Origin: Pontibacter sp. G13
GTDB lineage: Bacteria; Bacteroidota; Bacteroidia; J057
Direction of reading: 5' to 3'
NCBI RefSeq assembly: GCF_031851795.1
Contig: NZ_CP134696.1
Span: forward strand, 6,758,001 to 6,822,000
Length of the DNA stretch: 64,000 nucleotides
Shown here piece by piece: positions 39,659 through 54,020 of this stretch; the stretch's first letter is position 1; each line of letters opens with the position of its first letter. The position numbers and the translations under genes are program-made. The notes beneath the pieces were generated by a model. That model was not told where the DNA came from and ran no database searches. It saw only the letters and a list, made by a program, of their open reading frames with translations.

Positions 39659-40055
39659 TTTCGGGACCATCCTTAAATTTGGTTGGCCAGTGTTATTGAT
39701 CGCGGCGCTTGGCCTGATCAAATGGTCCATGGATCAATCCGAGGGTGGGGCAGGAGCCAAGGTTTATGCTGCAAGATGTGCCAATTGTCACATGGAATCT
39801 GGGCAAGGGTTGGGAAAGATGATCCCTTCCATGGTCCAATCCCCAGCGGTATTGAATGGCCAAGGCAATCTTGCCTGCTTGATCCGAAATGGAATCGCTA
39901 AAGATACCGCCAAAGTTGGGCCCGGTATGCCCGGATTCGAGTTGTCTCCGTCAGAGTTGGTCGCTGTGATCAACTACATGAAAAATGCCTGGGGCAATCA
40001 AGGAGGTGAGGTCACCTTTGCCGAAGTAGATAAAGCTCTGGAAGGATGTCCTTGA
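39639..40055 (+). CDS. Membrane-anchored cytochrome c
   Basis: 138 residues; an N-terminal transmembrane anchor (FGWPVLLIAALGLIKW), then the haem site CANCH at ~47-51 and axial Met in GPGMPGFEL. Class I cytochrome c fold. It overlaps the end of SCO by 20 bases. Probable electron carrier of the respiratory chain. Confidence 0.9.
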   Translation: MSNSKTNFGTILKFGWPVLLIAALGLIKWSMDQSEGGAGAKVYAARCANCHMESGQGLGKMIPSMVQSPAVLNGQGNLACLIRNGIAKDTAKVGPGMPGFELSPSELVAVINYMKNAWGNQGGEVTFAEVDKALEGCP

Positions 40056-40108
40056 CGTGATTTCCTGAGTGCCCTTGAAGCTGTTTAAAGCTTCTTTGCA
40101 AAAATCCC

Positions 40109-40143
40109 AAAGGCCTTCATCTTCATGAGGGTCTTTCTTTTTG
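40109..40143 (+). terminator. Possible terminator after the cytochrome c gene
   Basis: AAAGGCCTTCAT (40109-40120) pairs with ATGAGGGTCTTT (40125-40136) with two non-Watson-Crick positions; followed by CTTTTTG. Confidence 0.45.
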
Positions 40144-40592
40144 CTTAACCCTCCTCGGCTTATCGAAGCGCTATCCAATGCACGTCCCCGTAGGTTCAGA
40201 GACTCTAGTGTATTCTCCCAAGCTTCCCCTTGAGTATTTAATCGCTGAAACCTAGCTCCGATCCCGCTTGAAAAGTGCTGCCTTTCCTTAAATAGGACAA
40301 TCCTCTTGCGCTAGTACAGGCATTTCTTTGCTTCAAAGTCCTTCTTTCCTGTGCGCTCCCAGAAGGTTGGTTGATCGCCGAAAGGAAGATTCTCTGTAGG
40401 AACCTGTGAACCTAAAACGACTGACCAATGAAGCTTCAAGCGCTTCTGGACCTGTACCTCTGACTGAAGGTGGGCTTGAAGTTATTGCTAATGCTTATCC
40501 CCCTCAATCCTCTGTCTACTTTAGGATAGAAAAACGGGACCAAAGGCAAATGAACATGCCATCATCTGCCTCGGCCCCTCTTGGTACATGGG
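40144..40592. other. Non-coding stretch left of the island
   Basis: About 450 bases with no gene, RNA or repeat I can support. A 64-codon frame at 40406-40600 has no recognisable features and runs into the ssb end. This is the left junction of the accessory island. Confidence 0.4.
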
Positions 40593-40922
40593 TTACTTAG
40601 CGGGGTCAAGCAACAATAACTCTTTGGCGATAATCTGAGTGAGGGTCCTTGGCTGGCTATGTTCATCTTCCCAGCGGTGGTATCTCAGTTCGCCAGTCAC
40701 TCCGACTTTGCTTCCTTTTCTGAGCTTTTGATCGGCTTTGTCCGCGAGCGGGCCCCATGCGACGATCTGGTGCCACTGGGTCGAAGATTGCCATTCCCCT
40801 GACTTATCGCGAAAGTTCTGTGAGGTTGCTACAGAGAATTTCGCCTGTTTTGAGCCGCTATCAAAGGTTTTGAGTTTCGGGTCCTGACCCAAGTGTCCAA
40901 TCAGTTGAACTTGATTTTTCAT
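40593..40922 (-). CDS. ssb: Short single-stranded DNA-binding protein
   Basis: 109 residues from ATG 40922 (an upstream frame to 40982 has no support). OB-fold: VQLIGHLGQDPKLKTFDSGSKQAKFSVATSQNFRDKSGEWQSSTQWHQIVAWGPLADKADQKLRKGSKVGVTGELRYHRWE. It ends ELLLLDPAK, so the acidic C-terminal tip (DDDIPF-like) that recruits partners in housekeeping SSB is missing, as in many short bacterial paralogues. It is divergent from a recombinase operon and shares a palindromic regulatory region with it. Confidence 0.92.
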   Translation of the reverse strand: MKNQVQLIGHLGQDPKLKTFDSGSKQAKFSVATSQNFRDKSGEWQSSTQWHQIVAWGPLADKADQKLRKGSKVGVTGELRYHRWEDEHSQPRTLTQIIAKELLLLDPAK

Positions 40923-41014
40923 AGATACTGTGTTTGTTGAATGATGACCTGCCATCGCAAGCAGGTCGGACGTCTTGAGCAAACCTCGAAATTTGTGTTG
41001 GGATGGCGGCTGAA

Positions 41015-41046
41015 TTAAACGTTTACTTACGTAAATAAACGTTTAA
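41015..41046. promoter_or_regulatory. 32-bp near-perfect palindrome between ssb and the recombinase operon
   Basis: Left half TTAAACGTTTACTTAC, right half GTAAATAAACGTTTAA: symmetric at all but one base pair. It contains two AAACGTTT boxes flanking a central TTACGTAA. It ends 15 bases before the ATG of the zinc-ribbon gene and lies 92 bases upstream of the ssb start, so a dimeric regulator bound here could control both directions. Confidence 0.7.
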
Positions 41047-41060
41047 CGAAACTGCGATTT

Positions 41061-41429
41061 ATGGCTATTCCAAAAAAACGAAACTGTGAAGAGTGTCAAA
41101 AACCTCTTAAAGGAAGAGCTGATCAGCGATTTTGCTCGGCTGATTGCCGTTCCACTTATTATAATCGTGTGAATCGGCGTCTGCTACGCTTGAGATCAAA
41201 GATTCACCGAGACCTCAAAAGAAATCGGGATATTCTCCATGAACTGGCCCCTTCAGGAAAGCGGAAAGTCAAACGAGAAATGCTCCAACGGGCAGGATTC
41301 GATTGGCATTTCCACACCCACCGGATTCCCACCAGAGGAGATCGGGCTTATCAGTTTTGCTATGATTACGGCGTATTGGAACTAGGGGAGGGGATGTGTC
41401 TGATTGTACAAAACAAGATTTCGGCATGA
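41061..41429 (+). CDS. Small zinc-ribbon protein, first gene of the recombinase operon
   Basis: 122 residues. CEECQKPL...RFCSADCRSTYYNR forms a CxxC...CxxxC zinc site at ~9-31, followed by a basic helix (RRLLRLRSKIHRDLKRNRDIL) and a small alpha/beta tail. This type of protein is common in Bacteroidota and is uncharacterised. Its stop overlaps the recombinase ATG (ATGA), indicating co-translation. Possible DNA-binding regulator or accessory factor. Confidence 0.75.
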   Translation: MAIPKKRNCEECQKPLKGRADQRFCSADCRSTYYNRVNRRLLRLRSKIHRDLKRNRDILHELAPSGKRKVKREMLQRAGFDWHFHTHRIPTRGDRAYQFCYDYGVLELGEGMCLIVQNKISA

Positions 41430-42534
41430 GGACGATAGAACTGGCTACCATGGAGCACTGGGAAAAGCCATGTCTGAGCATTTTGCCTAAGTCTGGAGAA
41501 ATGCCTGAAACGCTCAGGAGATGGGGAAAGTTGAGGTACACAGCAGCAAAAAGATGTTGGTACATATTTCGATATTCTGGAGATCTGAGGGAATTGTTGG
41601 ATTTGATTCCAGAAGACATACACGTTCAATTCCGAGGCTTAGCTGCGATAGATGTCAAAGAGATCGAGCGAAGGGCTGTTAGTCCTGTGCATGAGGAGTT
41701 GCTACACTTTATCAAGCATTTAGAGCTACGTCGGTATGCACCTAGTACAGTACAGACTTATCGAGCCTTTTTATTAGGGTTTTTCCAGCATTTTCCGAAT
41801 CAGAACCCAGTTTCCTTGGGGGAAATAGAGGTCAAGCAATATATGACCCATTTGGTGGAAACTCGAAAATTGTCCTATTCTTCTCAAAATCAGGCTGTCA
41901 ATGCGATCAAATACTATTTTGAGCAAATCAAGGGCGATCGACAGCAGAAATATGATCTTCTTCGACCTCGGAAAGCGAAAACTCTTCCGACCGTTTTGAG
42001 CGAGGAAGAAGTCTCGGCGATCCTTTCCGCAATCCCAAATGTCAAGCATAAAACGTTGGTGACTTTGCTTTATGCAGCAGGTCTCAGATCTGGGGAATTG
42101 GTGAGTTTGAAGGTTTGTGATCTCGATTTGGAGCGCAAGCAAATCGTCATCAAAGGGGGAAAGGGAAAAAAGACCGGGTCACCCTTTTAGGCAATCGCAC
42201 GATTCCGCTGGTCAAGCGATATCTGGAGGAATATTTACCTCAAGATTGGTTGTTCCCTGGACTAAATGGCAAGCCTTACAGCAAAACTAGTTTACGGGCG
42301 ATTTTAGGTCGAGCAGTAAAAAAGTCTGGTATTAAGAAGCGCGTAGTTCCGCATACGCTTCGACACAGTTTTGCTACCCATTTGCTAGAACATGGTACCG
42401 ATCTTCGTTACATTCAAGCGTTATTGGGTCATTCATCTTCCAAAACCACTGAAATTTATACCCACGTAACAACACGAGGGTGGGATAAATTGACCAGTCC
42501 AATTGATTTTTTGGATTTGGGGGACAAAACATAG
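41426..42534 (+). CDS. Tyrosine recombinase, two frames joined by a -1 shift at A-AAA-AAG
   Basis: Full product ~369 residues if a -1 shift occurs at 42166-42172; without it, translation stops at TAG 42188-42190 after ~254 residues. An N-terminal extension of ~100 residues precedes a SAM-like core-binding domain ([29 protein letters not shown]) and the catalytic domain: Arg I in [14 protein letters not shown], beta-hairpin Lys in [10 protein letters not shown] (spanning the shift), [27 protein letters not shown] with the Tyr nucleophile. All catalytic residues are present only in the joined product; the zero-frame product lacks HxxR, His and Tyr. Between boxes I and II the text runs directly from [17 protein letters not shown] to [19 protein letters not shown], with no room for the ~35-residue insertion of IntI integrases. 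Alternatively a recent frameshift pseudogene. Confidence 0.85.
42155..42172 (+). other. Candidate -1 programmed frameshift site in the recombinase gene
   Basis: Zero-frame codons GGA AAA AAG ACC contain the heptamer A-AAA-AAG (42166-42172). Slippage by -1 makes the next codon GAC and gives [11 protein letters not shown], exactly the conserved recombinase motif. A Shine-Dalgarno-like GGGGGA lies at 42155-42160, a feature known to stimulate -1 shifting in dnaX and IS elements. I do not see a strong downstream hairpin. Confidence 0.6.
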
Positions 42535-42587
42535 TTTGTATATTGGGAATTATAAGGCGTAATATTGCGCATACACTCTAGTTGCGG
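42535..42587 (+). other. Candidate primary attachment site (attI-like)
   Basis: The 46 bases between the recombinase stop and the first GTT core (42581) occupy the position expected for attI. The segment is AT-rich with TATTGGGAATTATAAGGCG near its start and ends in CTCTAGTTGCGG. No clear direct-repeat arm structure is seen. Confidence 0.35.
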
Positions 42588-42779
42588 ACCTACTGCCGGG
42601 CTGCCTCGCAAGCTCAGCGCGAGATCTTCCTTTCATCCATATTGTTCGTTGGCCGATTGGCCGTCTATGGTCCGCAACAACGTGCAAGGGCCATGATGGT
42701 GGTCTTCCTCCAAGTTGGTTTGTAGATGCGGAATTTTTCCCTTCCGTGAAATATTGTTAATTTGGCCCCCGCACAGACC
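42581..42779 (+). repeat. ORF-less cassette a (199 bp, tandem copy 1)
   Basis: Starts GTTGCGGACC and carries GGTCCGCAAC (42669-42678) as its own R'' box. There is no open reading frame of note. More than 90% identical by eye to the next unit, differing mainly around 42713-42730. Confidence 0.75.
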
Positions 42780-42786
42780 GTTGCGG
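42669..42786 (+). other. attC-like site of cassette a
   Basis: R'' GGTCCGCAAC; inner arm GTGCAAGGGCCA (42682-42693) pairs with TGGCCCCCGCAC (42763-42774) except for a central AA/CC bulge; 3' core GTTGCGG at 42780. Confidence 0.75.
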
Positions 42787-42979
42787 ACCTACTTCCGGGC
42801 TGCCTCGCAAGCTCAGCGCGAGATCTTCCTGTTCATCCATATTGTTCGTTGGCCGATTGGCCGTCTATGGTCCGCAACAACGTGCAAGGGCCATGATGGT
42901 GGGCTTCCTCTTGATTGGTTAGGGGATTTGGAATTTTTCCCTTCCGTGAAATATTGTTAATTTGGCCCCCGCACAGACC
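42780..42979 (+). repeat. ORF-less cassette b (200 bp, tandem copy 2)
   Basis: Same organisation as copy 1, beginning GTTGCGGACC with R'' GGTCCGCAAC at 42869-42878. Ends CAGACC just before the GTTAGCATTA core of the first gene-bearing cassette. Confidence 0.75.
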
Positions 42980-42986
42980 GTTAGCA
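42869..42986 (+). other. attC-like site of cassette b
   Basis: Same arms as site a at 42882-42893 and 42963-42974; 3' core is GTTAGCA at 42980. Confidence 0.75.
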
Positions 42987-42998
42987 TTAATTAAAATC

Positions 42999-43412
42999 AT
43001 GACTGAACTAATCAAGACAGGGAAAAAGAGAACTATATTAATATCTATCAGTATTCTACTTGTTTCTCTTCACACTATTTATTTTTATCATGCAGTAAGG
43101 CCTGATATAGAAATTAAAAAGTTGATTCAACAAGGAATTAGATTTCTATTGACGATAGGACTATTGGTTCTTGTTTATAAAGGAAAAAATTGGGCGAAAA
43201 TTGTTTCAATTGTCCTGTTTTCTTTTGCATTATTAGGCGCATTGGTTGGGCTGTTTACAGTTGGGAATGTGTCAGTAATAAATAAGTTACCATTGATAGT
43301 AATGATAATTGTTTATTCAATGGCTATCTATCACTTTGGTGTTTCGGAAAGTTTTAAAGCCTTTTTTGAAAATAAGAATGGTACAAGTCATGATTTTCAC
43401 GTTGAAGAATAA
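42999..43412 (+). CDS. Cassette 1: small membrane protein
   Basis: 137 residues from ATG 42999, 19 bases inside the cassette start (the frame runs back into the ORF-less unit, so this ATG fits the cassette). About four transmembrane helices: ILISISILLVSLHTIYFY, FLLTIGLLVLVY, IVSIVLFSFALLGALVGLF, LPLIVMIIVYSMAIYHF. No family recognised. AT-rich codon use compared with chromosomal genes outside the island. Confidence 0.75.
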   Translation: MTELIKTGKKRTILISISILLVSLHTIYFYHAVRPDIEIKKLIQQGIRFLLTIGLLVLVYKGKNWAKIVSIVLFSFALLGALVGLFTVGNVSVINKLPLIVMIIVYSMAIYHFGVSESFKAFFENKNGTSHDFHVEE

Positions 43413-43415
43413 AAA

Positions 43416-43470
43416 TAATGCTAACAAAACCTAAACTGCATTAAAACGCAGCTTAGCCAAAACGTTATGT
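43416..43470 (+). other. attC-like site of cassette 1
   Basis: R'' TAATGCTAAC (43416-43425) is the reverse complement of the cassette start GTTAGCATTA. CTAAACTGC (43431-43439) pairs with GCAGCTTAG (43448-43456) with one extra-helical base. Short, 55 bases; 3' core GTTATGT at 43464. Confidence 0.85.
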
Positions 43471-43488
43471 GCAAGCTGAAAAAACAGT

Positions 43489-43758
43489 ATGGAATTAAAA
43501 GAATTTATTACGAAGACCCTAACGGAAATCAAAGACGGAATAAAAGAGGCGAGTGAAAAAGGAGTTGAAGTTTCTGATACAACCTCTAAAAATGTTGAAT
43601 TTGATATTTCTGTAACGACATATTCAGCTGACGAATCAAAAATTGGCGCAGGGATTTTTGTTACTGGAATAGGACTCGGAGCAAACACTAAAGAAATGAA
43701 TAATAATTCCGCAGTAAGCAGGATTAAATTTACTCTTCCACTTTTTATAGGCAAATAA
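43489..43758 (+). CDS. Cassette 2, gene 1: trypco2-like small protein
   Basis: 89 residues. MELKEFITKTLTEIKDGIKEA helix followed by VEFDISVTTYS and a Gly-rich turn IGAGIFVTGIGLGANTKE, ending VSRIKFTLPLFIG. This layout resembles the trypsin-co-occurring domain (trypco2) family of small proteins; similarity is by eye. Its stop overlaps the start of the next gene (TAATG), so the two are coupled. Confidence 0.6.
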   Translation: MELKEFITKTLTEIKDGIKEASEKGVEVSDTTSKNVEFDISVTTYSADESKIGAGIFVTGIGLGANTKEMNNNSAVSRIKFTLPLFIGK

Positions 43759-44102
43759 TGACTAAAAAATTGGATTTCATAGCTGAATTGAAATATAGAA
43801 CGACTGAACAAGGTGGACGGAAAACACCAGTGAACTCTGGTTATCGACCACAATTGAAATTTGATTTTACAGAAATGCAGACTTCTGGACATCAATTTTT
43901 CATTGGAACAAATTCTGTAAAGCCTGGAGAATCTGTGTTAGCTCAAATCGGAATGGATTCTACTCATTTTTATGAAAATAAATTAGAAGTCGGAATGGAA
44001 TTTGAATTTCGAGAAGGAGCAACAATTATCGGAATTGGAAAAATAATTGAAATACTAAATAAATCGCTGGAAAAGAAAAAGCCAGCACATAACAATGTAT
44101 AA
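43758..44102 (+). CDS. Cassette 2, gene 2: free-standing EF-Tu domain III-like protein
   Basis: 114 residues. ELKYRTTEQGGRKTPVNSGYRPQLKFD, VKPGESVLAQIGM and LEVGMEFEFREGATIIGIGKIIEI align with the last beta-barrel of EF-Tu (GGRHTPF..NYRPQFYF, VMPGDNV, LRFAIREGGRTVGAGVV). There is no GTPase domain. The stop codon lies inside the attC arm. May mimic or bind a translation-factor partner; role unknown. Confidence 0.68.
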   Translation: MTKKLDFIAELKYRTTEQGGRKTPVNSGYRPQLKFDFTEMQTSGHQFFIGTNSVKPGESVLAQIGMDSTHFYENKLEVGMEFEFREGATIIGIGKIIEILNKSLEKKKPAHNNV

Positions 44103-44219
44103 CCGCAATTACGGCGGATTCGACTACGTCCGAATCCACTCGGAATTGCTAATGTCTGTGCTAAACCGAAAATTAACGCATATTAACCCGTAACTGACGG
44201 TTATACGAGACCGTTCTCA
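44086..44219 (+). other. attC-like site of cassette 2
   Basis: R'' GCACATAAC is the reverse complement of cassette start GTTATGTGC (43464). GTATAACCG (44098-44106) pairs perfectly with CGGTTATAC (44198-44206), extended by TTACGG/CCGTAA. 3' core GTTCTCA at 44213, preceded by GAGACC, the ending also seen in flavobacterial attC sites. Confidence 0.88.
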
Positions 44220-44228
44220 TCAATTAAA

Positions 44229-44969
44229 ATGAAAAGAAGAATCCAGACATATGGAAAAAATGGAGTTCTGGAAATAGTCGGCAATCCTCAGGAAACCATT
44301 TTGTATTTAAAAAGTAGGCCGATTCAGTATTCTTGGTACGCAGAAGTCGGATCAACATGGAGGTTCCATATAGCTCAAGGTTTAAAAAAGCAAGTTGTTC
44401 GGCTATATAGCAGGATTGAAGAAACCCTACAGAGAGGAATTGGCAATGAGGGAGATTTTTTGGCAATTACTGAATACTTTAATCAATTTTTGTGCTATGG
44501 AACCTACGAATTTGGGTACTATGAATTGTGCGAGGATTTAACATGGGTTGATGTTCCCGAAAGTGAAGAGTATGAGAGTTATGATTATTACGGAGGGTCC
44601 GTAGGGATTTCTCCAACTCAGAATTTCATAGATGACAAGATTGTAGAAAATTACAAGGAACAAATATTAAGAGGTTCAAGACCAGTTTTGGTTCTGCTTC
44701 ACGTTGAAAACTCCTGGATGTTCTACATTTTGGACGGACATCATAAATTTCTTGCTTATCGTAGGGCGAAAGTTAAGCCCCATGCTATCATAATTACGAA
44801 GGTTGGCAATGAATACAGATCTATCTCGAACACTCTTGAATTAGCTGGAAAAATGGGCTGCACAAAACAAGGGTACCTTAATTGGATGAGTAAAGAGAAG
44901 AAGAATCTGGAGTACTACAAAAACCAAACCTTAGACCTGGAAGTGGAATTTAAAAGAATTGAAAACTGA
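44229..44969 (+). CDS. Cassette 3: ParB/Srx-like domain protein
   Basis: 246 residues. The clearest feature is MFYILDGHHKFLAYRRAKVKPHAIII at ~165-190, like the D-G-H-H-R motif of ParB/sulfiredoxin-fold proteins. N-terminal half is rich in aromatic and acidic residues (CEDLTWVDVPESEEYESYDYYGG). Function unknown; could be nuclease-like or NTP-using. The TGA overlaps the R'' box. Confidence 0.65.
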   Translation: MKRRIQTYGKNGVLEIVGNPQETILYLKSRPIQYSWYAEVGSTWRFHIAQGLKKQVVRLYSRIEETLQRGIGNEGDFLAITEYFNQFLCYGTYEFGYYELCEDLTWVDVPESEEYESYDYYGGSVGISPTQNFIDDKIVENYKEQILRGSRPVLVLLHVENSWMFYILDGHHKFLAYRRAKVKPHAIIITKVGNEYRSISNTLELAGKMGCTKQGYLNWMSKEKKNLEYYKNQTLDLEVEFKRIEN

Positions 44970-45036
44970 TGAGAACAACGGGTATAGGCCATAGCCGCCT
45001 GACGGCTTGCTCCGGCCCATACCCTAACCGTTGGCA
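44968..45036 (+). other. attC-like site of cassette 3
   Basis: R'' GATGAGAAC is the reverse complement of GTTCTCATC (44213). GGGTATAGGCC (44980-44990) pairs with GGCCCATACCC (45014-45024) with one mismatch. 69 bases, the classic short attC size; 3' core GTTGGCA at 45030. Confidence 0.9.
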
Positions 45037-45053
45037 TGCATTAGAAAAAAGAA

Positions 45054-45440
45054 ATGAGACGATACATCTTCTTGCCTTTACTCCTGATACTGGGATTCTC
45101 TCTTTCGACTTTCAGTCAGGAATTATCGCGCAATGGAATTAATGAAGCACAGGCTAAATCCATATTGCAAGCGTCACTCGCAGATTCTTCTCTTCACAAC
45201 ACGCTCGGGACTACAACGCTTTTGAGCGAAGAAACGGAAGCTGTCGATTTTGCTGAAAAAGTATTATTCAAAATTTACGGAAGGAAATCGATTCGATCAC
45301 AAAAACCATATCAGTCTTACCTGATTGATGAATATTGGGTTATTTCTGGAACACTACCTAAGAACATGAAAGGTGGGACGTTTTTAATCATAATAGATTC
45401 TAGGGATAACCGAGTGATTAGAATTACTCACGGGAAATAA
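45054..45440 (+). CDS. Cassette 4: exported NTF2-type immunity-like protein
   Basis: 128 residues with a signal peptide (RYIFLPLLLILGFSLSTFSQ). The mature part matches the NTF2-fold immunity pattern: AVDFAEKVLFKIYGRKSIRSQKPYQSYLIDEYWVISGTLP, GGTFLIIIDSRDNRVIRITHGK. Such proteins usually neutralise polymorphic toxins; no cognate toxin is seen here. An orphan immunity gene in a cassette suggests defence against neighbours. Confidence 0.65.
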   Translation: MRRYIFLPLLLILGFSLSTFSQELSRNGINEAQAKSILQASLADSSLHNTLGTTTLLSEETEAVDFAEKVLFKIYGRKSIRSQKPYQSYLIDEYWVISGTLPKNMKGGTFLIIIDSRDNRVIRITHGK

Positions 45441-45445
45441 AAAAC

Positions 45446-45637
45446 GCATGCCAACAATGTGTATAGTGCATATCTCGGGATTGGGGTCTGTAGGCGGTTT
45501 GCTTTAAAGGAGCTTGCCTCTACTTTGAGCGAACTACTAGGTTGGTTAAATTAGTAGTCGTCAAGAGTAAAGGCTCTGAGATAGGCGATATCAAAACACT
45601 TTAAATCCGAAACGCACCGTACACGCGTACGTTATCT
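45446..45637 (+). other. attC-like site of cassette 4
   Basis: R'' GCATGCCAAC is the reverse complement of GTTGGCATGC (45030). GTGTATAGTGC (45459-45469) pairs with GCACCGTACAC (45614-45624) with two non-matches. Long (192 bases); 3' core GTTATCT at 45631. Confidence 0.85.
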
Positions 45638-45651
45638 CCAATAGGATTAGA

Positions 45652-46269
45652 ATGAATTTCGAGAAATTAAATAGGCAGCTTTTACTTACACAGAATTATT
45701 GCTCGGCCCAGTTAAAAAACACTGAAAAGAATTATGCATCAATTCTCAGAAGTATAAATCCAACCTTGAATGGTGAACCTCTTTTTAAATTTGACTTTGT
45801 GGAAATATCAGCTAGCGAAAACTTCTTCGGTCAATATGTCTATTGGACTAAAGACCCTTACGAAATAGAAAATGAGGGATTGATAGAAGAACTATTTGAT
45901 ACTCAATTAAAAATTAAGGAAGAGACATTTAACCAATTAAATGAATCTGGTTTTGAAGGTGAAATCTTTGCATTTCATTTCGATGAAACATTAGTAGATG
46001 GAGCTGCCTGCGTATCCTCATTCGGATTATTAGATGATTATAACTGTCCACCAATTGATACATGGTTCTATATACAAAACCGAACATTATTAGCTTGGAT
46101 ACCAAAAGAATTAGTCGACTATGCCGAGGATGGAATATCCGTCAATCCCGAATCATGTATTGAATGGTATAAGGATGTAGAATTTGAAACCTATTCAACA
46201 ATTTTAAAACAAAACAATTTAACAAAAGTGGTTAATACTAATGGGCTTCCTGACTGGCTTAAAAGATAA
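45652..46269 (+). CDS. Cassette 5: unrecognised protein
   Basis: 205 residues, acidic and aromatic (FFGQYVYWTKDPYEIENEGLIEELF; IPKELVDYAEDGISVNPESCIEWYKDV). No signal peptide, no transmembrane segment, no motif I can assign. The gene fills the cassette between its start at 45631 and the attC at 46273. Could be an immunity or structural protein; no call is made. Confidence 0.7.
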   Translation: MNFEKLNRQLLLTQNYCSAQLKNTEKNYASILRSINPTLNGEPLFKFDFVEISASENFFGQYVYWTKDPYEIENEGLIEELFDTQLKIKEETFNQLNESGFEGEIFAFHFDETLVDGAACVSSFGLLDDYNCPPIDTWFYIQNRTLLAWIPKELVDYAEDGISVNPESCIEWYKDVEFETYSTILKQNNLTKVVNTNGLPDWLKR

Positions 46270-46272
46270 AAA

Positions 46273-46470
46273 GGAGATAACACGCTGTATATTTCATGGC
46301 TGATTAGTGGTCTTCAAGGCTTTGGTTCTTCTTAGAAACCCCGTCAATCTGCAAGCTTGACTAGCTTCGTAGGATAATTTTAGCAAGTCAATCTTGCAGA
46401 TTGACTCCGTGGTAAATCGAAATTTCACTACCTTGAATTCAGCCACGAAAACATACAGTAAACGTTAGCG
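46273..46470 (+). other. attC-like site of cassette 5
   Basis: R'' GGAGATAAC is the reverse complement of GTTATCTCC (45631). CTGTATATTTCATGGCTGA (46285-46303) pairs with the arm at 46439-46458 (TCAGCC...ACATACAG). A second internal inverted repeat at 46343-46365/46383-46405 matches at 21 of 23 positions. 3' core GTTAGCG at 46464. Confidence 0.88.
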
Positions 46471-46501
46471 GTAAGACCTAATAATGTCAGAATTAGATTA
46501 G

Positions 46502-47242
46502 ATGAACCTTCAAAAACGAATAATAATATTTGGAATTTATATTCTTTCTGGACTCACGACTGAGGGCTTCATTCTCTGGTTGTTCCCATATACTGGACTT
46601 GGCGGGCTAATTTGTTGGCCGACTGCTATAGTATTTTCATTGGTATTTGGTTTTATTCTTTACAAGTTGACTAAGAGACCATTAAAGATTTGGCAAATTG
46701 GTATAACATTTTTGACAATTTTAGTTTCGCAGGCTTACTTCCAGTTATTAACTACTCCTCAGGACTTTGGGGGTGATGTTATCTCTAAAATATCTATGGC
46801 TAAAAATGCCTTTTCCAATTACGAGGAATTAGAATTTCATGATTTTCCAAACTTAACGACAAGTGAACGAGTTGCTTATATTTATAAATTTAAACAAAAA
46901 CTTCCTGATACTTTTATTTCTCTGACTATTGACAGCCTAAAAAACGACCATGAGAGTTCAAACCCAAGGTCTTATTTAATCCATAATACAAACGGGTTAA
47001 GGGTCTATGATGAAAATAAAATTCTACTCAATGAAAATGATTCGGCTACTATAATCATAGAATATTACAACTCCGACACGTTGATTTATAATATGCACAG
47101 AAACTTCATAAATATTGGATCTGGCGGCTATAATAATAGAGTTATATCTCTTTACATTCATGAAGATGATTTTGAGTTAAAATCAGGAATAGAGGTATTT
47201 CTATATAAAATAATCGAGTGGACAAAAAAAGAATACCGCTAA
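46502..47242 (+). CDS. Cassette 6: membrane protein
   Basis: 246 residues from ATG 46502. The N-terminal ~90 residues hold three transmembrane helices (IIIFGIYILSGLTTEGFILWLF, WPTAIVFSLVFGFILYKL, IGITFLTILVSQAYF); the rest is a soluble ~150-residue domain (DFGGDVISKISMAKNAF ... VISLYIHEDDFELKSG). No family recognised. The TAA falls inside the R'' box of the attC. Confidence 0.72.
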   Translation: MNLQKRIIIFGIYILSGLTTEGFILWLFPYTGLGGLICWPTAIVFSLVFGFILYKLTKRPLKIWQIGITFLTILVSQAYFQLLTTPQDFGGDVISKISMAKNAFSNYEELEFHDFPNLTTSERVAYIYKFKQKLPDTFISLTIDSLKNDHESSNPRSYLIHNTNGLRVYDENKILLNENDSATIIIEYYNSDTLIYNMHRNFINIGSGGYNNRVISLYIHEDDFELKSGIEVFLYKIIEWTKKEYR

Positions 47243-47428
47243 CAATCTGTAAACAACAATAGCTAGCTAGTAGGTTATCAAAGTTCATCACTGCTGTCGA
47301 GGTCGCCAATCCTTGCGGATTGCCTCGTGGCAAAAATAATACTAGTCAACCGACAAGTTTTGGCTAAGTGCTAACTTGAAAGTATATTCGTTCTAAAACC
47401 CGCAACTGTTTTTACAGTAGCGTTGTAA
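47234..47428 (+). other. attC-like site of cassette 6
   Basis: R'' TACCGCTAAC is the reverse complement of GTTAGCGGTA (46464). CTGTAAACAACA (47247-47258) pairs with TGTTTTTACAG (47407-47417). 3' core GTTGTAA at 47422. Confidence 0.85.
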
Positions 47429-47517
47429 GTAATTCTCCCACCTTAGATAAGTTTTCTAAATTTTAAATTAGAGAATATTTAATTTGGTATTCATGTAATA
47501 AAAAGTTCAAAATCAAA

Positions 47518-47919
47518 ATGCTTGAATTCAATACAGCAACAAAAGAGAAACTTATTAACTCCAAAATTAAAAATGAAGAGAAACTCTACCTCATATCAAG
47601 GTATATTGAAGAAAAATACTGCTTTCAAATTCAACCTAACCATTGGGATGACAAATTTGACAACCTTTTGGAAGTAGAACGAATTTATTACAGAACTTGG
47701 CTTTGGTTATGTTATGCTGAATGGGAGAATCTTGTAGTTCCTGTACCAGAATTTGAAGTAATTTATGGATCAGTACAAATGTCTAACTTAACCAAATATA
47801 TTAAGTCGAATGAGGATAATCAGGAAATCGATAAAATATATACTTTAGACGGAAAAGCAGGGATTGTACTCCTCGAATGGGGATTAGAAAATTTACAAAC
47901 TACTTACAACATTAGCTAA
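47518..47919 (+). CDS. Cassette 7: unrecognised protein
   Basis: 133 residues: LEFNTATKEKLINSKIKNEEKLYLISRYIEEKYCFQIQPNHWDDKFDNLLEVERIYYRTWLWLCYAEWENL, rich in Trp and Tyr. No signal or transmembrane segment, no assigned family. Its last codons and TAA (47917-47919) lie inside the attC L'' arm. Confidence 0.7.
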   Translation: MLEFNTATKEKLINSKIKNEEKLYLISRYIEEKYCFQIQPNHWDDKFDNLLEVERIYYRTWLWLCYAEWENLVVPVPEFEVIYGSVQMSNLTKYIKSNEDNQEIDKIYTLDGKAGIVLLEWGLENLQTTYNIS

Positions 47920-47974
47920 TCTCCATCCATCGGTCGACACGCCCGCTGGTCGTAGTTTAGCCATTACGTTGTAT
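47901..47974 (+). other. attC-like site of cassette 7
   Basis: R'' TACTTACAAC is the reverse complement of GTTGTAAGTA (47422). GCTAATCT (47915-47922) pairs with AGTTTAGC (47954-47961), one mismatch; centre CGGTCGACACGCCCGCTGG. 74 bases; 3' core GTTGTAT at 47968. Confidence 0.82.
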
Positions 47975-47990
47975 GCCATTTTAATAATAC

Positions 47991-48374
47991 ATGAATCAGA
48001 GCCCTTTGAAAGTTTCATTTGCTATTCCAGAACATGGTTGGCTGATGGTGAATATCGAAACTGCCGACTCAACTTTAGAATTCGAATCTTCTGACATCCC
48101 TAACAATCCATTAATTGACTTATTAAGTGCAATAAATATTCTACTACAAAGTAAGAAAGGTGAACAAAAGACAAATTGGAGTTTAGAACCTGACAATTAT
48201 TATTTAACACTCTCAAGAGATGAAGATAAGTTTAGTTTAAGAATCGAAGACGATAGAGATGAAAAATTAACCTTCTTTGGAAATAAGTTATCGGTCATCA
48301 TTCCATTTGCAGTCGAAATTCTTAAATTTTATTCAGCAGGGTATTCCGAACCACATTGGCCGACTCTGGACTAG
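47991..48374 (+). CDS. Cassette 8, gene 1: unrecognised protein
   Basis: 127 residues, no signal peptide or transmembrane segment. LKVSFAIPEHGWLMVNIETADSTLEFESSDIPNNPLIDLLSAINILLQ has the layout of small immunity-type beta proteins, but no family can be named. Followed by another small gene after 35 bases in the same cassette. Confidence 0.65.
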   Translation: MNQSPLKVSFAIPEHGWLMVNIETADSTLEFESSDIPNNPLIDLLSAINILLQSKKGEQKTNWSLEPDNYYLTLSRDEDKFSLRIEDDRDEKLTFFGNKLSVIIPFAVEILKFYSAGYSEPHWPTLD

Positions 48375-48409
48375 AACAAAATTTCTAAATTAAAAGAGCT
48401 ATTAGAATT

Positions 48410-48805
48410 ATGAGCTGGGACTTATTTGTACAAGATTGGGGTAATGCCAGAACACTCGAAGAAATACCTGATGATTTTCAACCACAATCTATTGGTACCC
48501 GATCTAATATTATTGATCAAATAATGAAAATAGAACCAACAGTGAAATTTTATGATAAGTCAATAGGAAATCTAGAAAATGATCAGTTTTCAATTGAGTT
48601 CAATATGGGGAATGAAGAACAATTGAATTCATTTTCTATGCACGTTAGAGGAAGTGAACTGTCAATTCCATGTATTGGAAATATATTAAAGCAACTAAAC
48701 CTAAGAGCTACCGACGGGACTAGTCCTGACTTTTTTGATACAGCAAGCGCCATTGACAGTCTCCAAAACTGGATTCAGTTTAGAAACAACATACTGGCAA
48801 AGTAA
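48410..48805 (+). CDS. Cassette 8, gene 2: unrecognised protein of a widespread small family
   Basis: 131 residues: MSWDLFVQDWGNARTLEEIPDDFQPQSIGTRSNIIDQIMKIEPTVKF, then FSIEFNMGNEEQLNSFSMHVRGSELSIPCIGNILKQLNLRA. I recognise the MSWD(I/L)FVQD opening as recurring in hypothetical proteins from many phyla, probably immunity-like, but no function is known to me. Ends 2 bases before the attC. Confidence 0.65.
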   Translation: MSWDLFVQDWGNARTLEEIPDDFQPQSIGTRSNIIDQIMKIEPTVKFYDKSIGNLENDQFSIEFNMGNEEQLNSFSMHVRGSELSIPCIGNILKQLNLRATDGTSPDFFDTASAIDSLQNWIQFRNNILAK

Positions 48806-48807
48806 AA

Positions 48808-49001
48808 GCATATAACATGCTATACGACAGCATCCTTTAGTGGTGCTAGAGTAGACTTATGTCTTTCTTGGAAGCCCCGCCAAAACTCCGTTTTGGCCAA
48901 TTGGTAACAAAATAAGTAATAGACCAAAACGGAGTTTTGGCTATTTAGAAGACGAAACATTAGATTTACATAAACGGACGCCGCCTATAGAGGCGTTGTA
49001 C
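48808..49001 (+). other. attC-like site of cassette 8
   Basis: R'' GCATATAAC matches the reverse complement of GTTGTATGC (47968) with one mismatch. GCTATACG...GCATCC pairs with GGACGCCGCCTATAG (48976-48990). The loop holds a 20-base inverted repeat at 48879-48898/48922-48941 with one mismatch. 3' core GTTGTAC at 48995. Confidence 0.8.
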
Positions 49002-49019
49002 TTCATTTAATGAATCTAC

Positions 49020-49679
49020 GTGAATAAATCGTTATATATAAAACCTGTTCTTGAACTATCACCTTCTGAGTATTCAAAAACAGAACATGAATATCCAAAT
49101 GGTAGTTCTATTGAGTATCCAAACGAATGGAATCAATATTGGCTCAAGAATCTTTCAGAATCAGGAATAGATGACATTGTTCCATGTATTAAAGGCCAAT
49201 TTTTTGCAGAATTGTCAAGAATATCAGATAGTACTCTTGAAATAATATTAAATACGCAATTGGAAGAAACTGACCTTAATTCAGAAGATGAAATATGTGC
49301 TTTAGAGGGTGGGTTAACAGTATTTTTCGATGACATACCATTAATTTACCCTCAATGTTGTTCATCATTAAGCGATTATAAAAATTGGCTTGAAACTCTG
49401 GAAGATAAGCCAACCACTTGGAAACAAATATGGATTGGACACCCAATGATTTATGTTAAAATAAGCAATAACAAATTAGAATTTTCTGAACTAACAGAAG
49501 CTAATTCTCCTAAAGATAAAGCTGAATTTGAAGTTGATTTAAAAGAATTTAGTAATCAGATAATAAATACCATAGATCAAATTAAGTCTTTTCAAATAAG
49601 AGTCGAAAAAATCCTTAAAAATGGTAATTACAAACGACCACAAAGACTTGCTGACATCTTGGTAAATAACACACAATAA
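49020..49679 (+). CDS. Cassette 9: unrecognised protein
   Basis: 219 residues from a GTG start at 49020 (an ATG at 49010 is out of frame). LYIKPVLELSPSEYSKTEHEYPNGSSIEYPNEWNQYWLKNLSESGIDDIVP, then CSSLSDYKNWLETLEDKPTTWKQIWIGHPMIYVKISNNKLEFSEL. Acidic, soluble; resembles small immunity-type proteins but unassigned. Confidence 0.65.
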   Translation: MNKSLYIKPVLELSPSEYSKTEHEYPNGSSIEYPNEWNQYWLKNLSESGIDDIVPCIKGQFFAELSRISDSTLEIILNTQLEETDLNSEDEICALEGGLTVFFDDIPLIYPQCCSSLSDYKNWLETLEDKPTTWKQIWIGHPMIYVKISNNKLEFSELTEANSPKDKAEFEVDLKEFSNQIINTIDQIKSFQIRVEKILKNGNYKRPQRLADILVNNTQ

Positions 49680-49688
49680 AAAATACGA

Positions 49689-49881
49689 AAGTACAACATT
49701 CGATAGTGTCTGCAGGGCGATACCGAAGTAAAAGAAGCGGTAGAGCATTTGGAAGCCTCGTCGATTCTACGATGCGCCTCATTGTAAATCAAAAATGTAT
49801 GAGTCGAATCCTAGATTCGACTATATTCATACAGAAACAAACTATATTACATACGCCCCACAGCATATCGGGTCGTTGTGC
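49689..49881 (+). other. attC-like site of cassette 9
   Basis: R'' AAGTACAAC is the reverse complement of GTTGTACTT (48995). CGATAGTGTCTGCAGGGCG (49701-49719) pairs with CGCCCCACAGCATATCG (49854-49870). An internal perfect hairpin AGTCGAATC/GATTCGACT lies at 49802-49822. 3' core GTTGTGC at 49875. Confidence 0.82.
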
Positions 49882-50035
49882 TACATTAAAAAAACAACAC
49901 TATTCGACCACATGACTGACGATGACAAGAAGAGTACAATGGACAAAATCATTGACAGTTGAGTGAATTGAAAACTAATAATGATCAGTGTCATTCTGAT
50001 TTTCAAACGCATCTAATAAAGATTAAACAGACTAG

Positions 50036-50434
50036 ATGATTGCCATAATCATAGGAGCAGCATTACTTGGACTCACGATTCACTTCCTTGGACCAAAAAA
50101 CTTTTGGAAAAATGACTTGTGGGAAATAGCGATTAGTAGAACGAGCATTTCATTACTAATCTCGATAAGCATTCTAGGACTGAGTTTCCTGAATTTTCTC
50201 TACATAAGTGACCCGTTATCTGATTCAGGAGTACGGACATTCATTGATATAATCCTCGGGATTCCCATGGCGATCCCTTTCATATTTGGATTTTCTGAAG
50301 GAGATGAATATGCTATTGCTGCCGTGTTGGTCGAAATAGTATTTATGACATTTATCTTTCGACTGTTCATTTCGAAGAACTGGACAGAAAAAATAAGAGA
50401 CAAAATGAAAAGCGTTGCACAACAAAGACTATAA
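50036..50434 (+). CDS. Cassette 10: small membrane protein
   Basis: 132 residues; AIIIGAALLGLTIHFLG, TSISLLISISILGLSFLNFLY, IPFIFGFS and VLVEIVFMTFIFRLF indicate three to four transmembrane helices. No family. About 160 AT-rich bases precede it inside the cassette, containing only a 16-codon frame (49912-49962). Its TAA lies in the weak attC. Confidence 0.65.
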   Translation: MIAIIIGAALLGLTIHFLGPKNFWKNDLWEIAISRTSISLLISISILGLSFLNFLYISDPLSDSGVRTFIDIILGIPMAIPFIFGFSEGDEYAIAAVLVEIVFMTFIFRLFISKNWTEKIRDKMKSVAQQRL

Positions 50435-50496
50435 AATATGCTACTTTTTACGGAATCATTCAGTTTCTATCTTTCAATCCCAAACATCTGTTAGCA
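50417..50496 (+). other. Degenerate attC-like end of cassette 10
   Basis: GCACAAC (50417-50423) is the reverse complement of GTTGTGC (49875), and a GTTAGCA core follows at 50490, but the arms between them pair poorly (AAAGACTAT with CTATCTTT at best). Probably decayed, or the array boundary. Confidence 0.4.
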
Positions 50497-50552
50497 GCAA
50501 ATAAAAGTACCCAAATTCAGGCAATCTGGAGGTTACACTTTTGGGTCGGAGA
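50494..50552 (+). repeat. Dispersed 59-bp repeat, copy 1
   Basis: Begins GCAGCAAATAAAAGTACCCA and ends TCGGAGA; identical to copy 2 at 52 of 59 positions. In one frame both copies read KYPNSG(N/R)LE(V/A)TL, so they may be remnants of the same coding sequence; copy 1 has an internal TAA. Confidence 0.65.
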
Positions 50553-50581
50553 TTAGGGGCCATGGCCCCTAATCTCCGACC
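50544..50581. repeat. 38-bp perfect palindrome
   Basis: GGTCGGAGATTAGGGGCC (50544-50561), AT, then its exact complement (50564-50581). It overlaps the end of repeat copy 1, exactly where that copy stops matching copy 2. No U-run follows. Confidence 0.85.
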
Positions 50582-50756
50582 GCATGAGTGGAACCACAAG
50601 CTTGTTTGCCGCATTTGGAAAGCACAAGTGTTAGAACCTCCGCAAAAAGAAAAGCGAAAGCTGCCCAAACAAAAACACCGCAATCTGATCCCGCCGGAGA
50701 AAGTTAACCAAGGCTGGATAGTGGATTAGGAGAGTCAGGTAAGCTTGGAATACTCC

Positions 50757-51527
50757 CTATCGCTTTCTAAGTACAAATACACTTTGTTTGGTTCTATCAA
50801 TAAGTTGATGATGGAATTCTGTAACCTCGAAATTTGCCTTCTTTACTAGCGTGAAGAAGAACTCTTTTTCGAATCGTACTCGGTGAAGAGCTCCAACGGA
50901 TTTATCTAGATAATCTTTAGGGTTCTCTTCCATATCTGGAACATTTTCTTCAACAAATGCAGTTAGGTAGACTCGACCATTGCTGGTTAGTACCTTATGA
51001 AATTCCGATAAGTAAAAACTGATATCAGAATCGAGCATATGCGAAAAAACAGAGTTTAGGAAAATCAGATCTATTTCATTCTCTGCCAGTGGAAGAGGTT
51101 TTAACCCTTTCTCAGAGGGATTGTAGCGAGCATTTTCAGCTGGTAGATGTATGAAGGATATTTTGTCGTGATAACAAAGATGCTTTTCGCACCATTCGAT
51201 TGCTTTTTTTGATGTGTCTAACCCAATGTAGGATTGAAAATCGGTTTTGCTATAAATCAGGGAATTTAATAGTCTTCCTTGTCCACATCCAAAGTCAAGT
51301 ATCTTGGTATTGTTATTAATGAGCTCAAACCTCAAGAGGTGGTTAATTTGCTCTATTCCTGATTCAATATAAGATCGGTTGTTCGATAAATTTTCATTAC
51401 TTCTTGAATATGGCAGTTTGATTCCTTCAAAATTCACAAAGTCATTTTGAACACCATTCCCTTTTAGTTTTCGTAAGATTTTATCGATCATCTTCTCAGC
51501 TGTTTTTGGGTTGAATTTAGGAAACAA
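50757..51527 (-). CDS. Class I SAM-dependent methyltransferase
   Basis: 256 residues. Motif I ILDFGCGQGRLLNSLI, motif II YIGLDTSKKAIEWCEKHL, and LIFLNSVFSHMLDSDISFYLSEFHKVLTSNGRVYLTAF correspond to a Methyltransf_25/11 fold. N-terminal ~75 residues are an extra region. Only gene in the island on the minus strand; AT-rich like the cassettes. Substrate unknown (sugar or small molecule equally possible). Confidence 0.85.
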   Translation of the reverse strand: MFPKFNPKTAEKMIDKILRKLKGNGVQNDFVNFEGIKLPYSRSNENLSNNRSYIESGIEQINHLLRFELINNNTKILDFGCGQGRLLNSLIYSKTDFQSYIGLDTSKKAIEWCEKHLCYHDKISFIHLPAENARYNPSEKGLKPLPLAENEIDLIFLNSVFSHMLDSDISFYLSEFHKVLTSNGRVYLTAFVEENVPDMEENPKDYLDKSVGALHRVRFEKEFFFTLVKKANFEVTEFHHQLIDRTKQSVFVLRKR

Positions 51528-52377
51528 GAGTGGATGAGAACGAAGGTGCCTAAACCCCGCACTAGTAACTACTCATCAGCAAAATAGTAAACTCAGGGCT
51601 CCTTCCCTAACACAATACCTATATTGCCCTCATTCACATTATTCAAAAAATGAATAATATGAAATAGTTGTAGTCCTAATATAATGCTATTTTTGGGAGT
51701 GTTAAATTTTGTGTATCAGGACCTTGGAGAGTTCTTCAAATTTCGTATGATCCTTCTTAGAATTATATTGGAGTGTCTGTCGAGACATCCCGCTTTTTAT
51801 CCAGATAACGTTCATTCAGGCAGCAGCGGCGCGTTTGCGAATTCATTATAACGTAAAAACTGAAATGATAGAAAGATTAGTCAGTTCAATTTTTTATAAA
51901 TGTACTGCTGTTGGAAATTTAAGTCAATGAATAATCCGGAAAAAGTTTCCCATGAAATGAGTAACTGATTTGAGATTCTAAGGAAGAAGTTTTTGAACAT
52001 CAGTACGAATGGCTATTGCAGTCCAGATTCTCTATGGCGATTGATTCCTATTTCTTCGGGTGCTAATTGTAATGTCGTTCTGAGTATTGGGGAATTTGAC
52101 AATCCGGTTTTGCCATTTGAGAAAGCTTTGAGGGAGTATTGTGCTGGTTGCGGCAGCAATCCTATGATTAAAAAACCAAAATGGCATATTTTGAAGAGAA
52201 ACAGGAGAGAGGGGGCGGCAGCAAATACAAGTACCCAAATTCAGGCCGTCTGGAGGCAACACTTTTCGGTCTGAGACCTGAGTATTACAACAAAACCTTG
52301 AGCTTTGAATGGGTGAAATGGTCGACAGACAGGGAGTACTTTTGGAAGTATGTTTTAGTTGTGGTAAATTTTTTTAA
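51528..52377. other. Decayed right end of the island
   Basis: About 850 bases without a supportable gene. It contains a small hairpin (ATTATTCA/TGAATAAT, 51638-51658), a possible orphan core ATAACGTTCATTC at ~51805, and the second copy of the dispersed repeat. Short frames at 51993-52274 and 52181-52381 show no family and are probably remnants. Confidence 0.5.
52218..52276 (+). repeat. Dispersed 59-bp repeat, copy 2
   Basis: Starts GCAGCAAATACAAGTACCCA and ends TCTGAGA. Open in the frame GGSKYKYPNSGRLEATLFGLRPEYYNK, so it could be the better preserved relic of a gene of which copy 1 is a broken fragment. Confidence 0.65.
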
Positions 52378-52629
52378 ATGAAATACTTGCTTTTCATATT
52401 GACTGGATTATTAGGACTGATTACTCTTTTCTTCACTTGGATCTATATTCAAAGAGCAAATCTTGATTACAATCCTGAGGGAAGGTTTTTCTCTGCGGAA
52501 GATGGGGTTGTTTTCCATGAACAAGCTAAGATCGTATATGGAATGCTTGCGCTTTTGGGATTGATTTTGACAGTCGTATGCATGATTCCTTTATTGAAAA
52601 GAAAAACACAGCTGCCCAAGAATGCCTAA
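52378..52629 (+). CDS. Small two-helix membrane protein
   Basis: 83 residues: KYLLFILTGLLGLITLFFTWIYI and IVYGMLALLGLILTVVCMIPLL are two transmembrane helices separated by a polar loop (NPEGRFFSAEDGVVFHEQAK). Basic C-terminus. No family recognised. Confidence 0.65.
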   Translation: MKYLLFILTGLLGLITLFFTWIYIQRANLDYNPEGRFFSAEDGVVFHEQAKIVYGMLALLGLILTVVCMIPLLKRKTQLPKNA

Positions 52630-52772
52630 TCCGCATGAAAACGCAGGTTAGTCGCGGAGTCTTCAATTGGTATAGGCTTCTGAATTTTACTCCTTGCTGA
52701 AATTGTGGTAGTTTGAGTCAGGATATACCTCATTCCTCGCATCGAACCCAGCGACTCAAACGATCCCAGTCC

Positions 52773-54020
52773 ATGAGAACTTTCAAATACATCCTTCTCA
52801 TCCTTTTGGCCATTTTGGGCTGGACGGCATTCGTGAATGTTGGTACATATTCGGGATTTCTATTAAGCCCCATCACTTCCGGAAAATCCGCCTCATCATT
52901 TATCGAAGCGTCTCAATCGAAGCTAGACGATGAATTCGTCGGAAATCTAGCCTTAGTACTATTGGAGGATGGAGAGGTATCCCAAGATTTCTATTATGCG
53001 ATAGACGAAACGATCGATAAAAACACCCTTTTTCAGATGGCTTCCATCAGTAAATGGGTGACCTCTTGGGGGGTGTTGGCATTGGCTCAAGCAGGAAAAA
53101 TAGATATTGATGCGCCTGTTGAGAATTATCTGACCCGATGGCATTTGCCCGAAAGTGAGTTCGATCATCGGGAGGTAACCATTCGGAACCTCTTGTGCCA
53201 TACTTCTGGGTTGACGGATGGACTTGGGTATGGAGGCTTTTCCGCTGAGGACTCGGTCCAGACGATCGAAGAATCATTGACTCAAGCGGCAGACGGATAT
53301 TGGTCCTCAGGCAAGGCCAAGGTGGGCTATCAACCCAATAGCCAATATAGATACTCAGGTGGCGGTTACACACTGCTACAATTGGTGGTGGAGGAGGTGA
53401 GTGGCCAATCCTTCAATGACTATATGACAAAGGCCGTCTTTGAGCCGCTCAACATGAATCGATCCTCCTTTTATGGGTCGGACACCTCATCCCTGTACTT
53501 GGCCAAGTTTTATGATAGCGACTCGTCTATTGCGCCCCACTATAGATATACAGCTTTGGCGGCCGCTTCCTGGTACACCTGCACGGAGGATTTGACTTTG
53601 TTTCTACAGGCACATTTCGTGGAGAATCCAGTACTCGATCAGGAAACCATCCTGATGATGAGTGAGGTTCACACACCTCCCGGTCAGGGAATGCATGGAT
53701 TGGGGCCTATGATTTTTGGGAAAAATGGAGATGGAGACTACCTGATCGGTCATGACGGCTTGAGCAGAGCCGCGATCAATAACGCAGCCAGAATCAACCT
53801 CAAGACACGAGATGGGATCATCGTTTTGGAAACTGGAAGTCCAAGCTTTGCCTCTGAGTTGGCCAATGAATGGGGCTTTTGGAAAACGAACATCCCCAAT
53901 TCTACGGTGATGAGCTCAAATTTCAACAAGCTTTTTGGCTATCTAGTCTTGGGGTATGTGATCATTTTGACGGTGTCTATGTATATCATTCGCAGAAAAC
54001 GCAAATTGGAACGGGTTTAG
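52773..54020 (+). CDS. Serine hydrolase (beta-lactamase/PBP-like fold)
   Basis: 415 residues from ATG 52773; the frame opens at a TTG (52713) without support. N-terminal anchor (YILLILLAILGWTAFVNV) and a C-terminal helix (LFGYLVLGYVIILTVSMYII). Active-site SxxK in MASISKWVTSWG, Tyr motif YRYSGGGYTLLQLVVEEVSG and HDGLSR near the end. Class C-like family; substrate unknown. Confidence 0.88.
   Translation: MRTFKYILLILLAILGWTAFVNVGTYSGFLLSPITSGKSASSFIEASQSKLDDEFVGNLALVLLEDGEVSQDFYYAIDETIDKNTLFQMASISKWVTSWGVLALAQAGKIDIDAPVENYLTRWHLPESEFDHREVTIRNLLCHTSGLTDGLGYGGFSAEDSVQTIEESLTQAADGYWSSGKAKVGYQPNSQYRYSGGGYTLLQLVVEEVSGQSFNDYMTKAVFEPLNMNRSSFYGSDTSSLYLAKFYDSDSSIAPHYRYTALAAASWYTCTEDLTLFLQAHFVENPVLDQETILMMSEVHTPPGQGMHGLGPMIFGKNGDGDYLIGHDGLSRAAINNAARINLKTRDGIIVLETGSPSFASELANEWGFWKTNIPNSTVMSSNFNKLFGYLVLGYVIILTVSMYIIRRKRKLERV

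Follow-up and report, generated by a model that had tools for sequence, protein, structure and literature searches.

Two near-identical gene-less units of about 200 bp, probably integron cassettes, beside a patch-less XerA/IntI-like recombinase in Pontibacter sp. G13

Introduction

Directly downstream of a tyrosine recombinase gene of Pontibacter sp. G13 lie two tandem, near-identical units without an evident gene, and the question raised by this locus is what these units are and whether, as gene-less cassettes, they were kept for a function or are passengers. They were analyzed within a window of 64,000 nucleotides (contig NZ_CP134696.1, positions 6,758,001 to 6,822,000), together with the genome and related loci.

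Bacteroidota are listed among the integron-bearing phyla in the available text of PMC8618304 and PMC9668308, and the Bacteroidetes/Chlorobi group is named for integrons in that of PMC2426708, a survey restricted to hits that contain the additional domain or patch of the integron integrase. In the accessible part of the IntegronFinder 2.0 report, one complete Bacteroidetes integron is given, in Salinibacter, besides those of Chlorobi and Ignavibacteriae (PMC9024848).

Results

With the unit borders set by placing the cut between the G and the TT of the core, alignment of the two units revealed identity in 188 of 200 columns, the remainder being 11 substitutions and one 1-base indel (Table 1). 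The left end of each unit is GTTGCGGACC, and its exact reverse complement, GGTCCGCAAC, lies 88-89 bp downstream; the left core and the R'' box of both units match exactly over 10 bp, with the G^TT core of integron cassettes. In both units AAC separates R'' from the arm GTGCAAGGGCCA; a loop of about 69 bases then leads to the second arm, TGGCCCCCGCAC, and AGACC precedes the next core. Both units are located directly 3' of the recombinase and attI, in the first position of the array. The preliminary description, which had read here two near-identical tandem units of 199 and 200 bases, each with a matching left core and R'' box, in the first position beside the recombinase, was thus correct in these three respects.

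Table 1. Position and main characteristics of the features at the locus (coordinates in the window).
Feature	Position	Strand	Characteristics
Tyrosine recombinase, XerA/IntI-like, IntI-patch region absent, two frames	41426..42534	+	Pfam Phage_int_SAM_4 and Phage_integrase
A6G run at the recombinase frame break	42166..42172	+	Three-frame translation
attI, putative	42535..42581	+	Imperfect palindrome GCGTAATATTGCGC (42557-42570), 10 bases, then core G
Cassette 1, ORF-less, 199 bp	42582..42780	+	10-bp matched ends 42581-42590 / 42669-42678; attC fold
attC of cassette 1	42672..42786	+	R'' 42672-42678, L'' 42682-42693, L' 42763-42774, R' 42780-42786 (supplied by cassette 2)
Stretch with 10 of the 12 differences	42703..42729 in cassette 1, partner 42903-42929 in cassette 2	+	Alignment columns 123-149, attC loop
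Cassette 2, ORF-less, 200 bp	42781..42980	+	94% identity with cassette 1
attC of cassette 2	42872..42986	+	In-place R' from unrelated cassette 3; mainly the L''/L' stem pairs
Rest of the cassette array	42981..50430	+	Self-complementary ends; right end read by eye

The R''-L''-loop-L'-R' organization of an attC was found in both units, and their L'' and L' arms pair. When folding was computed for single-stranded DNA, attC1 formed on its bottom strand both the R''/R' and the L''/L' stem (-21.2 kcal/mol, z -2.65, equalled by 1 of 200 shuffles), and the top strand was close to it (z -2.50), leaving almost no strand preference. Cassettes 1 and 2 share their starting core, which makes the R''/R' pairing of attC1 complete in place. 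The in-place attC2 folded no better than shuffles (bottom strand -11.7 kcal/mol, z +0.66; top strand z +1.70), since cassette 3, which is unrelated, supplies its right core; the L''/L' stem of attC2 is kept. A third attC of the same array (44086-44219), folded for comparison, gave a z of -4.63.

As in integrons, the array stands next to an attI, assigned here by its position, and an integrase gene. Cores are located at 42581, 42780, 42980, 43464, 44213, 45030, 45631, 46464, 47422, and 48995; their ends match over 9-10 bases, and these ten were hand-picked from a match list that also contained unrelated chance pairs. Two further cores, at about 47967 and about 49876, were read by eye. The first gene of the array starts at 42999. 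The cassette gene at 43758-44102 resembles the C-terminal domain of EF-Tu (PF03143, E 2.4e-9), and that at 45054-45440 is similar to NTF2-fold immunity proteins (PF15631, E 1.1e-24). Beyond the array, two 59-bp direct repeats with 88% identity were observed (50494-50552 and 52218-52276). The body of the units has a G+C content of 58% and their attC one of 49%, whereas the remaining array has 35% and the window as a whole 47%; given this contrast with the rest of the array, the units probably derive from another source than the neighbouring cassettes.

The frame-joined recombinase scored 227 bits with NF040815 ("site-specific tyrosine recombinase/integron integrase"), above the cut-off of 220, and 221 bits with TIGR02249, below the cut-off of 265, matching the latter at profile positions 4-178 and 240-314. 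The positions between 178 and 240, where the IntI-specific additional domain (patch) is expected, were unmatched. The reading frame is broken, within 42158-42175, at an A6G run with the sequence A AAA AAG, a known slippery heptamer. Among the relatives at the best 80 of 552 recombinase loci, the region of the break is in one frame in 77 and was not located in three. A programmed frameshift was therefore rejected, and a mutation of the A run or an assembly error appears the likelier cause.

The differences between the units are clustered: 10 lie in one stretch of the attC loop, while the body carries one substitution and one indel, and 10 differences within 33 columns occurred in 0 of 100,000 random placements. 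Searched as a 24-base piece with up to 3 mismatches allowed, neither version of the stretch recurred in the genome, and no donor was detected within the window (best local score 11); template switch or conversion as the source of the stretch was rejected. Of the two duplicated cassette pairs compared from other arrays, that of L098 has 0 differences in 773 positions and that of L100 has 4, scattered, in 1088; a pair of similar length in L026 turned out not to be a duplicate. The idea of a recent duplication put forward in the preliminary description is therefore supported only in part: 10 of the 12 differences are gathered in one stretch with no donor found in the genome, unlike in the duplicates of L098 and L100. 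Separate capture of two versions of one cassette is as likely as a duplicate that later received a foreign attC-loop stretch, and the few changes in the body compared to the 10 in the loop could reflect constraint on the body.

Neither unit contains an ORF above 210 bp (70 aa), which is the definition of gene-less in the available text of PMC11014356. The longest listed ORFs touching the units are one of 81 aa with a TTG start (42715-42960), which crosses the unit junction, and one of 60 aa on the minus strand. On the plus strand, the longest ORF with a start codon in the body plus 60 bases has 47 aa (unit 1) or 26 aa (unit 2); on the minus strand, within the body only, the values are 15 and 24 aa, respectively. 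A frame without a start codon is open for 59 codons through unit 1 and is shifted in unit 2 by the indel; six of its codons changed between the copies, synonymously in only one case (read by eye). The 81-aa ORF and the 59-aa translation had no Pfam match at E<=10, and a small peptide in the open frame was rejected on this result and on the lone tblastn match (39.5%, E 0.4, an archaeal plasmid). No reading frame common to both units was found. The earlier statement that the units hold no meaningful reading frame is thus sustained, yet with the two listed ORFs to be kept in mind.

No further copy of the unit was detected beyond these two places in the 7.67 Mb genome, in 22 genomes of the order (own included), or in a partial phylum sample of 395 genomes (own and 394 others; two candidate places scored per listed genome). 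The same result was obtained with 59 relatives, with plasmids and phages, and with viral contigs searched for three exact patterns, and the best 80 of 552 loci around related recombinases gave only short weak matches. Two weak DNA matches among the relatives, in L003 (44 bp, 80%) and L004 (30 bp, 87%), with E 0.003-0.004, were dropped as chance, because neither has cassette ends and that of L004 appears to lie within a coding stretch (read by eye). The preliminary description had proposed to look for copies in the genome and in relatives, and had named a dispersed repeat family lacking attC features as the outcome that would contradict cassettes; this outcome was not found, the unit having a single genomic location and no copies elsewhere in the genome.

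The related recombinases at these 80 loci share 36-55% identity with that of the window, and by record titles the loci are mostly from Bacteroidota, with some MAGs labelled as other phyla. Chains of at least three self-complementary cassettes, on the same strand from the recombinase stop, were found in 19 of the 80 loci compared to 0 of 70 random anchors, and chains of at least two in 25 compared to 7; the anchors were taken in the same loci, and many chain-less loci are contigs ending soon after the gene. In 17 of 29 further loci, a candidate first cassette lies 44-247 bp downstream of the stop; among the loci with enough sequence it was present in 16 of 23, compared to 18 of 460 random anchors. 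In the phylum sample, 86 of the 395 genomes, own included, contain a recombinase match at E<=1e-60, and not each of these matches need mark an integron. The stretch from KGKKDR to HTLRH measured 72-77 residues in 75 of the 80 relatives, two more being alike and three not located; with a wider pattern, no stretch above 90 residues was found in the 77 located. Two array-bearing relatives scored with NF040815 and TIGR02249, respectively, 234.6 and 216.1 bits (L084) and 211.1 and 207.8 bits (L062), the second below both cut-offs.

The rule of matched ends was followed by the rest of the window array and by 24 other loci, in two of which one cassette was found. The cassette census covered the chains of at least two in 25 of 81 sequences (the 80 loci and the window), L086 being dropped as weak and the start moved in L028, where the first apparent cassette lies inside an ssb-like gene (by eye). 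The window chain of the census ends at cassette 6, probably because the attC of that cassette is longer than the script limit, and the later window cassettes are outside the 98 measured; in the chain scan of the loci, a false core at 45545 was taken at this place of the window. Among these 98, the two bodies studied here (98-99 bp) are the shortest, and six cassettes are ORF-less, two of them being the window pair. An enrichment of ORF-less cassettes in first position (2 of 25 first compared to 4 of 73 later, window included) was not convincing. Two more ORF-less first-cassette candidates, L126 and L130, were noted among the 29 further loci, and that of L130 was rejected as a cassette, with no attC behind it. 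A region of L130 (about 2474-2664, G227) consists of about 190 bp of G+C-rich nested hairpins, without a gene, before the first gene-carrying core.

Pairing of the cassette ends was followed in 92 of the 98 cassettes, six with a mismatch in the first ten bases being excluded, so that positions 1-9 match by selection. The paired fraction was 0.64 at position 10, 0.03 at position 11, and 0.79, 0.84, and 0.61 at positions 12, 13, and 14, respectively. The window units fit this pattern as far as position 11, and their positions 12-14 are unpaired (read by eye). In the 55 bases before the first core, 16 of 24 loci contain an inverted repeat with a stem of 6-11 bp and a loop of 0-13, the end of which is 1-11 bases away from the core; in 10 of the 24 it was better than shuffles (p < 0.05). 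No such repeat was found in L104, L062, L022, L026, L029, L049, L067, and the window, where 46 bases separate the recombinase stop codon from the first core and contain an imperfect palindrome only (stem 4, p 0.975, not significant).

Discussion

Both units have the anatomy of cassettes, occupy the first position, share no reading frame, and have no other copy in the sequences searched. We consider them, with a probability of about 0.72, complete ORF-less integron cassettes comprising little beyond a recombination site, which entered at attI as two related captures or as one copied cassette changed in its attC loop, and whose role is at most that of a passive leader or spacer. Each unit would then be made up of an attC and matched ends, the remainder being a G+C-rich filler of about 80 bases without a gene, and we infer that the integrase inserted them. 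Entry would have taken place at attI, the usual entry point, either by successive capture of two related cassettes or by copying followed by the change in the attC loop. Once in place, the units would provide at most about 400 bp of passive leader or spacer, separating the first gene, at 42999, from attI and the promoter presumed there. Owing to its fully paired R''/R' stem, cassette 1 would be easier to mobilise than cassette 2, given an active recombinase; the gene is frameshifted here.

Other origins of the units are consistent with part of these data. A former gene cassette, shortened by deletion and degenerating, would account for the start-less frame open for 59 codons in unit 1, and the available text of PMC11014356 describes decayed genes for a few of the gene-less cassettes of Vibrio; however, neither Pfam at E<=10 nor tblastn in plasmids, with its single chance-level match, revealed the gene, and the frame is shifted between the copies, which makes such a remnant doubtful. 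The inverted 10-bp ends would also suit a small hairpin element or dispersed repeat that landed beside the recombinase without being a cassette, and in L130 a 139-bp G+C-rich inverted-repeat unit does lie between the recombinase and the first cassette. The absence of another copy in the genome and the ends and attC, which obey the rule of the array, render this origin extremely improbable.

A product or signal carried by the units was weighed in the same way. That each unit drives transcription of the downstream cassettes would agree with the position before a gene and with the precedents in PMC11014356 and PMC6557892, as far as available; most of the gene-less Vibrio cassettes tested in the former do so. 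Between 42400 and 43100, however, two sigma-70-type sites were predicted, both on the minus strand, compared to 1.4 in shuffles, and a Bacteroidota-type motif, scanned by its consensus, was at chance in both units, where 0.44 to 0.54 of the 300 random sequences scored as well; for the attI stretch this fraction was 0.09. The 58% G+C of the body also differs from the high A+T to which PMC11014356 points in its available part. One terminator-like site was predicted, in the attC1 loop on the plus strand (1.0 in shuffles). Promoter cassettes thus seem unlikely, these scans being weak evidence, as in-silico promoter prediction for such cassettes is described as unreliable in the same text. A non-coding RNA encoded by the body, comparable to the integron-borne sRNA-Xcc1 of Xanthomonas (PMC12444791, available part), would fit the nearly unchanged body; however, the inner bodies folded no better than shuffles on both strands (z +0.34 to +0.64), the values of the whole bodies (z -2.57 and -2.28) stemming from the cassette ends, and Rfam at E<=1 over 40000-54000 returned one match, below the gathering score and far from the units. 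No relatives to show covariation were found either, and we regard an RNA as very improbable. The preliminary suggestions of a promoter or an RNA were accordingly not supported, the former by tests that are themselves weak. The function of the two units is probably nil or passive, and the presence of a near-identical pair in first position could reflect selection for some function.

ORF-less cassettes are a kind already known, and those described here are very small and belong to a poorly catalogued integron type. The gene-less cassettes of the Vibrio superintegron share with them a complete attC, the lack of a gene, and a chromosomal array; those selected in PMC11014356, according to its available text, are 491-666 bp long, most with promoter activity, whereas the window pair has 199-200 bp, a body of 58% G+C, and a first position in tandem. 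Promoter activity was also shown for the ORF-less cassettes of oral Treponema, which is from another phylum (PMC6557892, available part). The sRNA-Xcc1/symE cassette is likewise an integron cassette with a non-coding product, but it also carries symE, is widespread, and is oriented against Pc (PMC12444791, in the text available), whereas no relatives and no RNA structure were found for the window pair. The window recombinase resembles classical IntI as a tyrosine recombinase beside a cassette array whose two parts match TIGR02249, and it differs in the unmatched positions 178-240, in the score under the cut-off, and in having the array 3' on the same strand. The pair shows how small a cassette can be and still occur twice at the entry site, and is of interest for the question of whether cassettes without a gene are retained for a function or simply carried along.

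The setting is, in our opinion, a more interesting lead than the units themselves. A patch-less XerA/IntI-like recombinase with a downstream array on the same strand appears to be common in Bacteroidota, and no paper on such a type was found in a partial literature search, in which one query returned mostly unrelated papers. We tentatively propose, as an idea that has the odds against it, that the pair is part of a Bacteroidota-wide integron type missed by surveys based on the IntI patch, characterized by this recombinase and array, often an inverted repeat before the first core, and matched ends of 9-10 bp followed by a rarely pairing position, where the two minimal cassettes would be kept at attI as a leader setting array expression.

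The relatives of the recombinase extend to plasmids. A shortened one, 53% identical to the window recombinase over residues 131-365, immediately precedes tet(X3) on the Acinetobacter plasmids L103 (NZ_CP041297.1) and L102 (NZ_CP104735.1), and adds to the interest of the setting; among the listed records, 25 have this same recombinase match (52.8-53.2%). A literature search for tet(X3) beside a patch-less recombinase found no paper, the bracketed gene name not being searchable. Between the recombinase and tet(X3) of L103 lies a stretch like the attI of patch-less integrons (inverted repeat, 7 bases, core), and downstream of tet(X3) there is a sequence with a partial match to the core; from these sequences, tet(X3) may have originated as the first cassette of a patch-less integron. 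In the Rufibacter tibetensis plasmid L104 (NZ_CP012644.1), the recombinase is followed by self-complementary cassette ends from 7170, 9388, 10798, and 12371, which looks like a plasmid-borne integron of the patch-less type.
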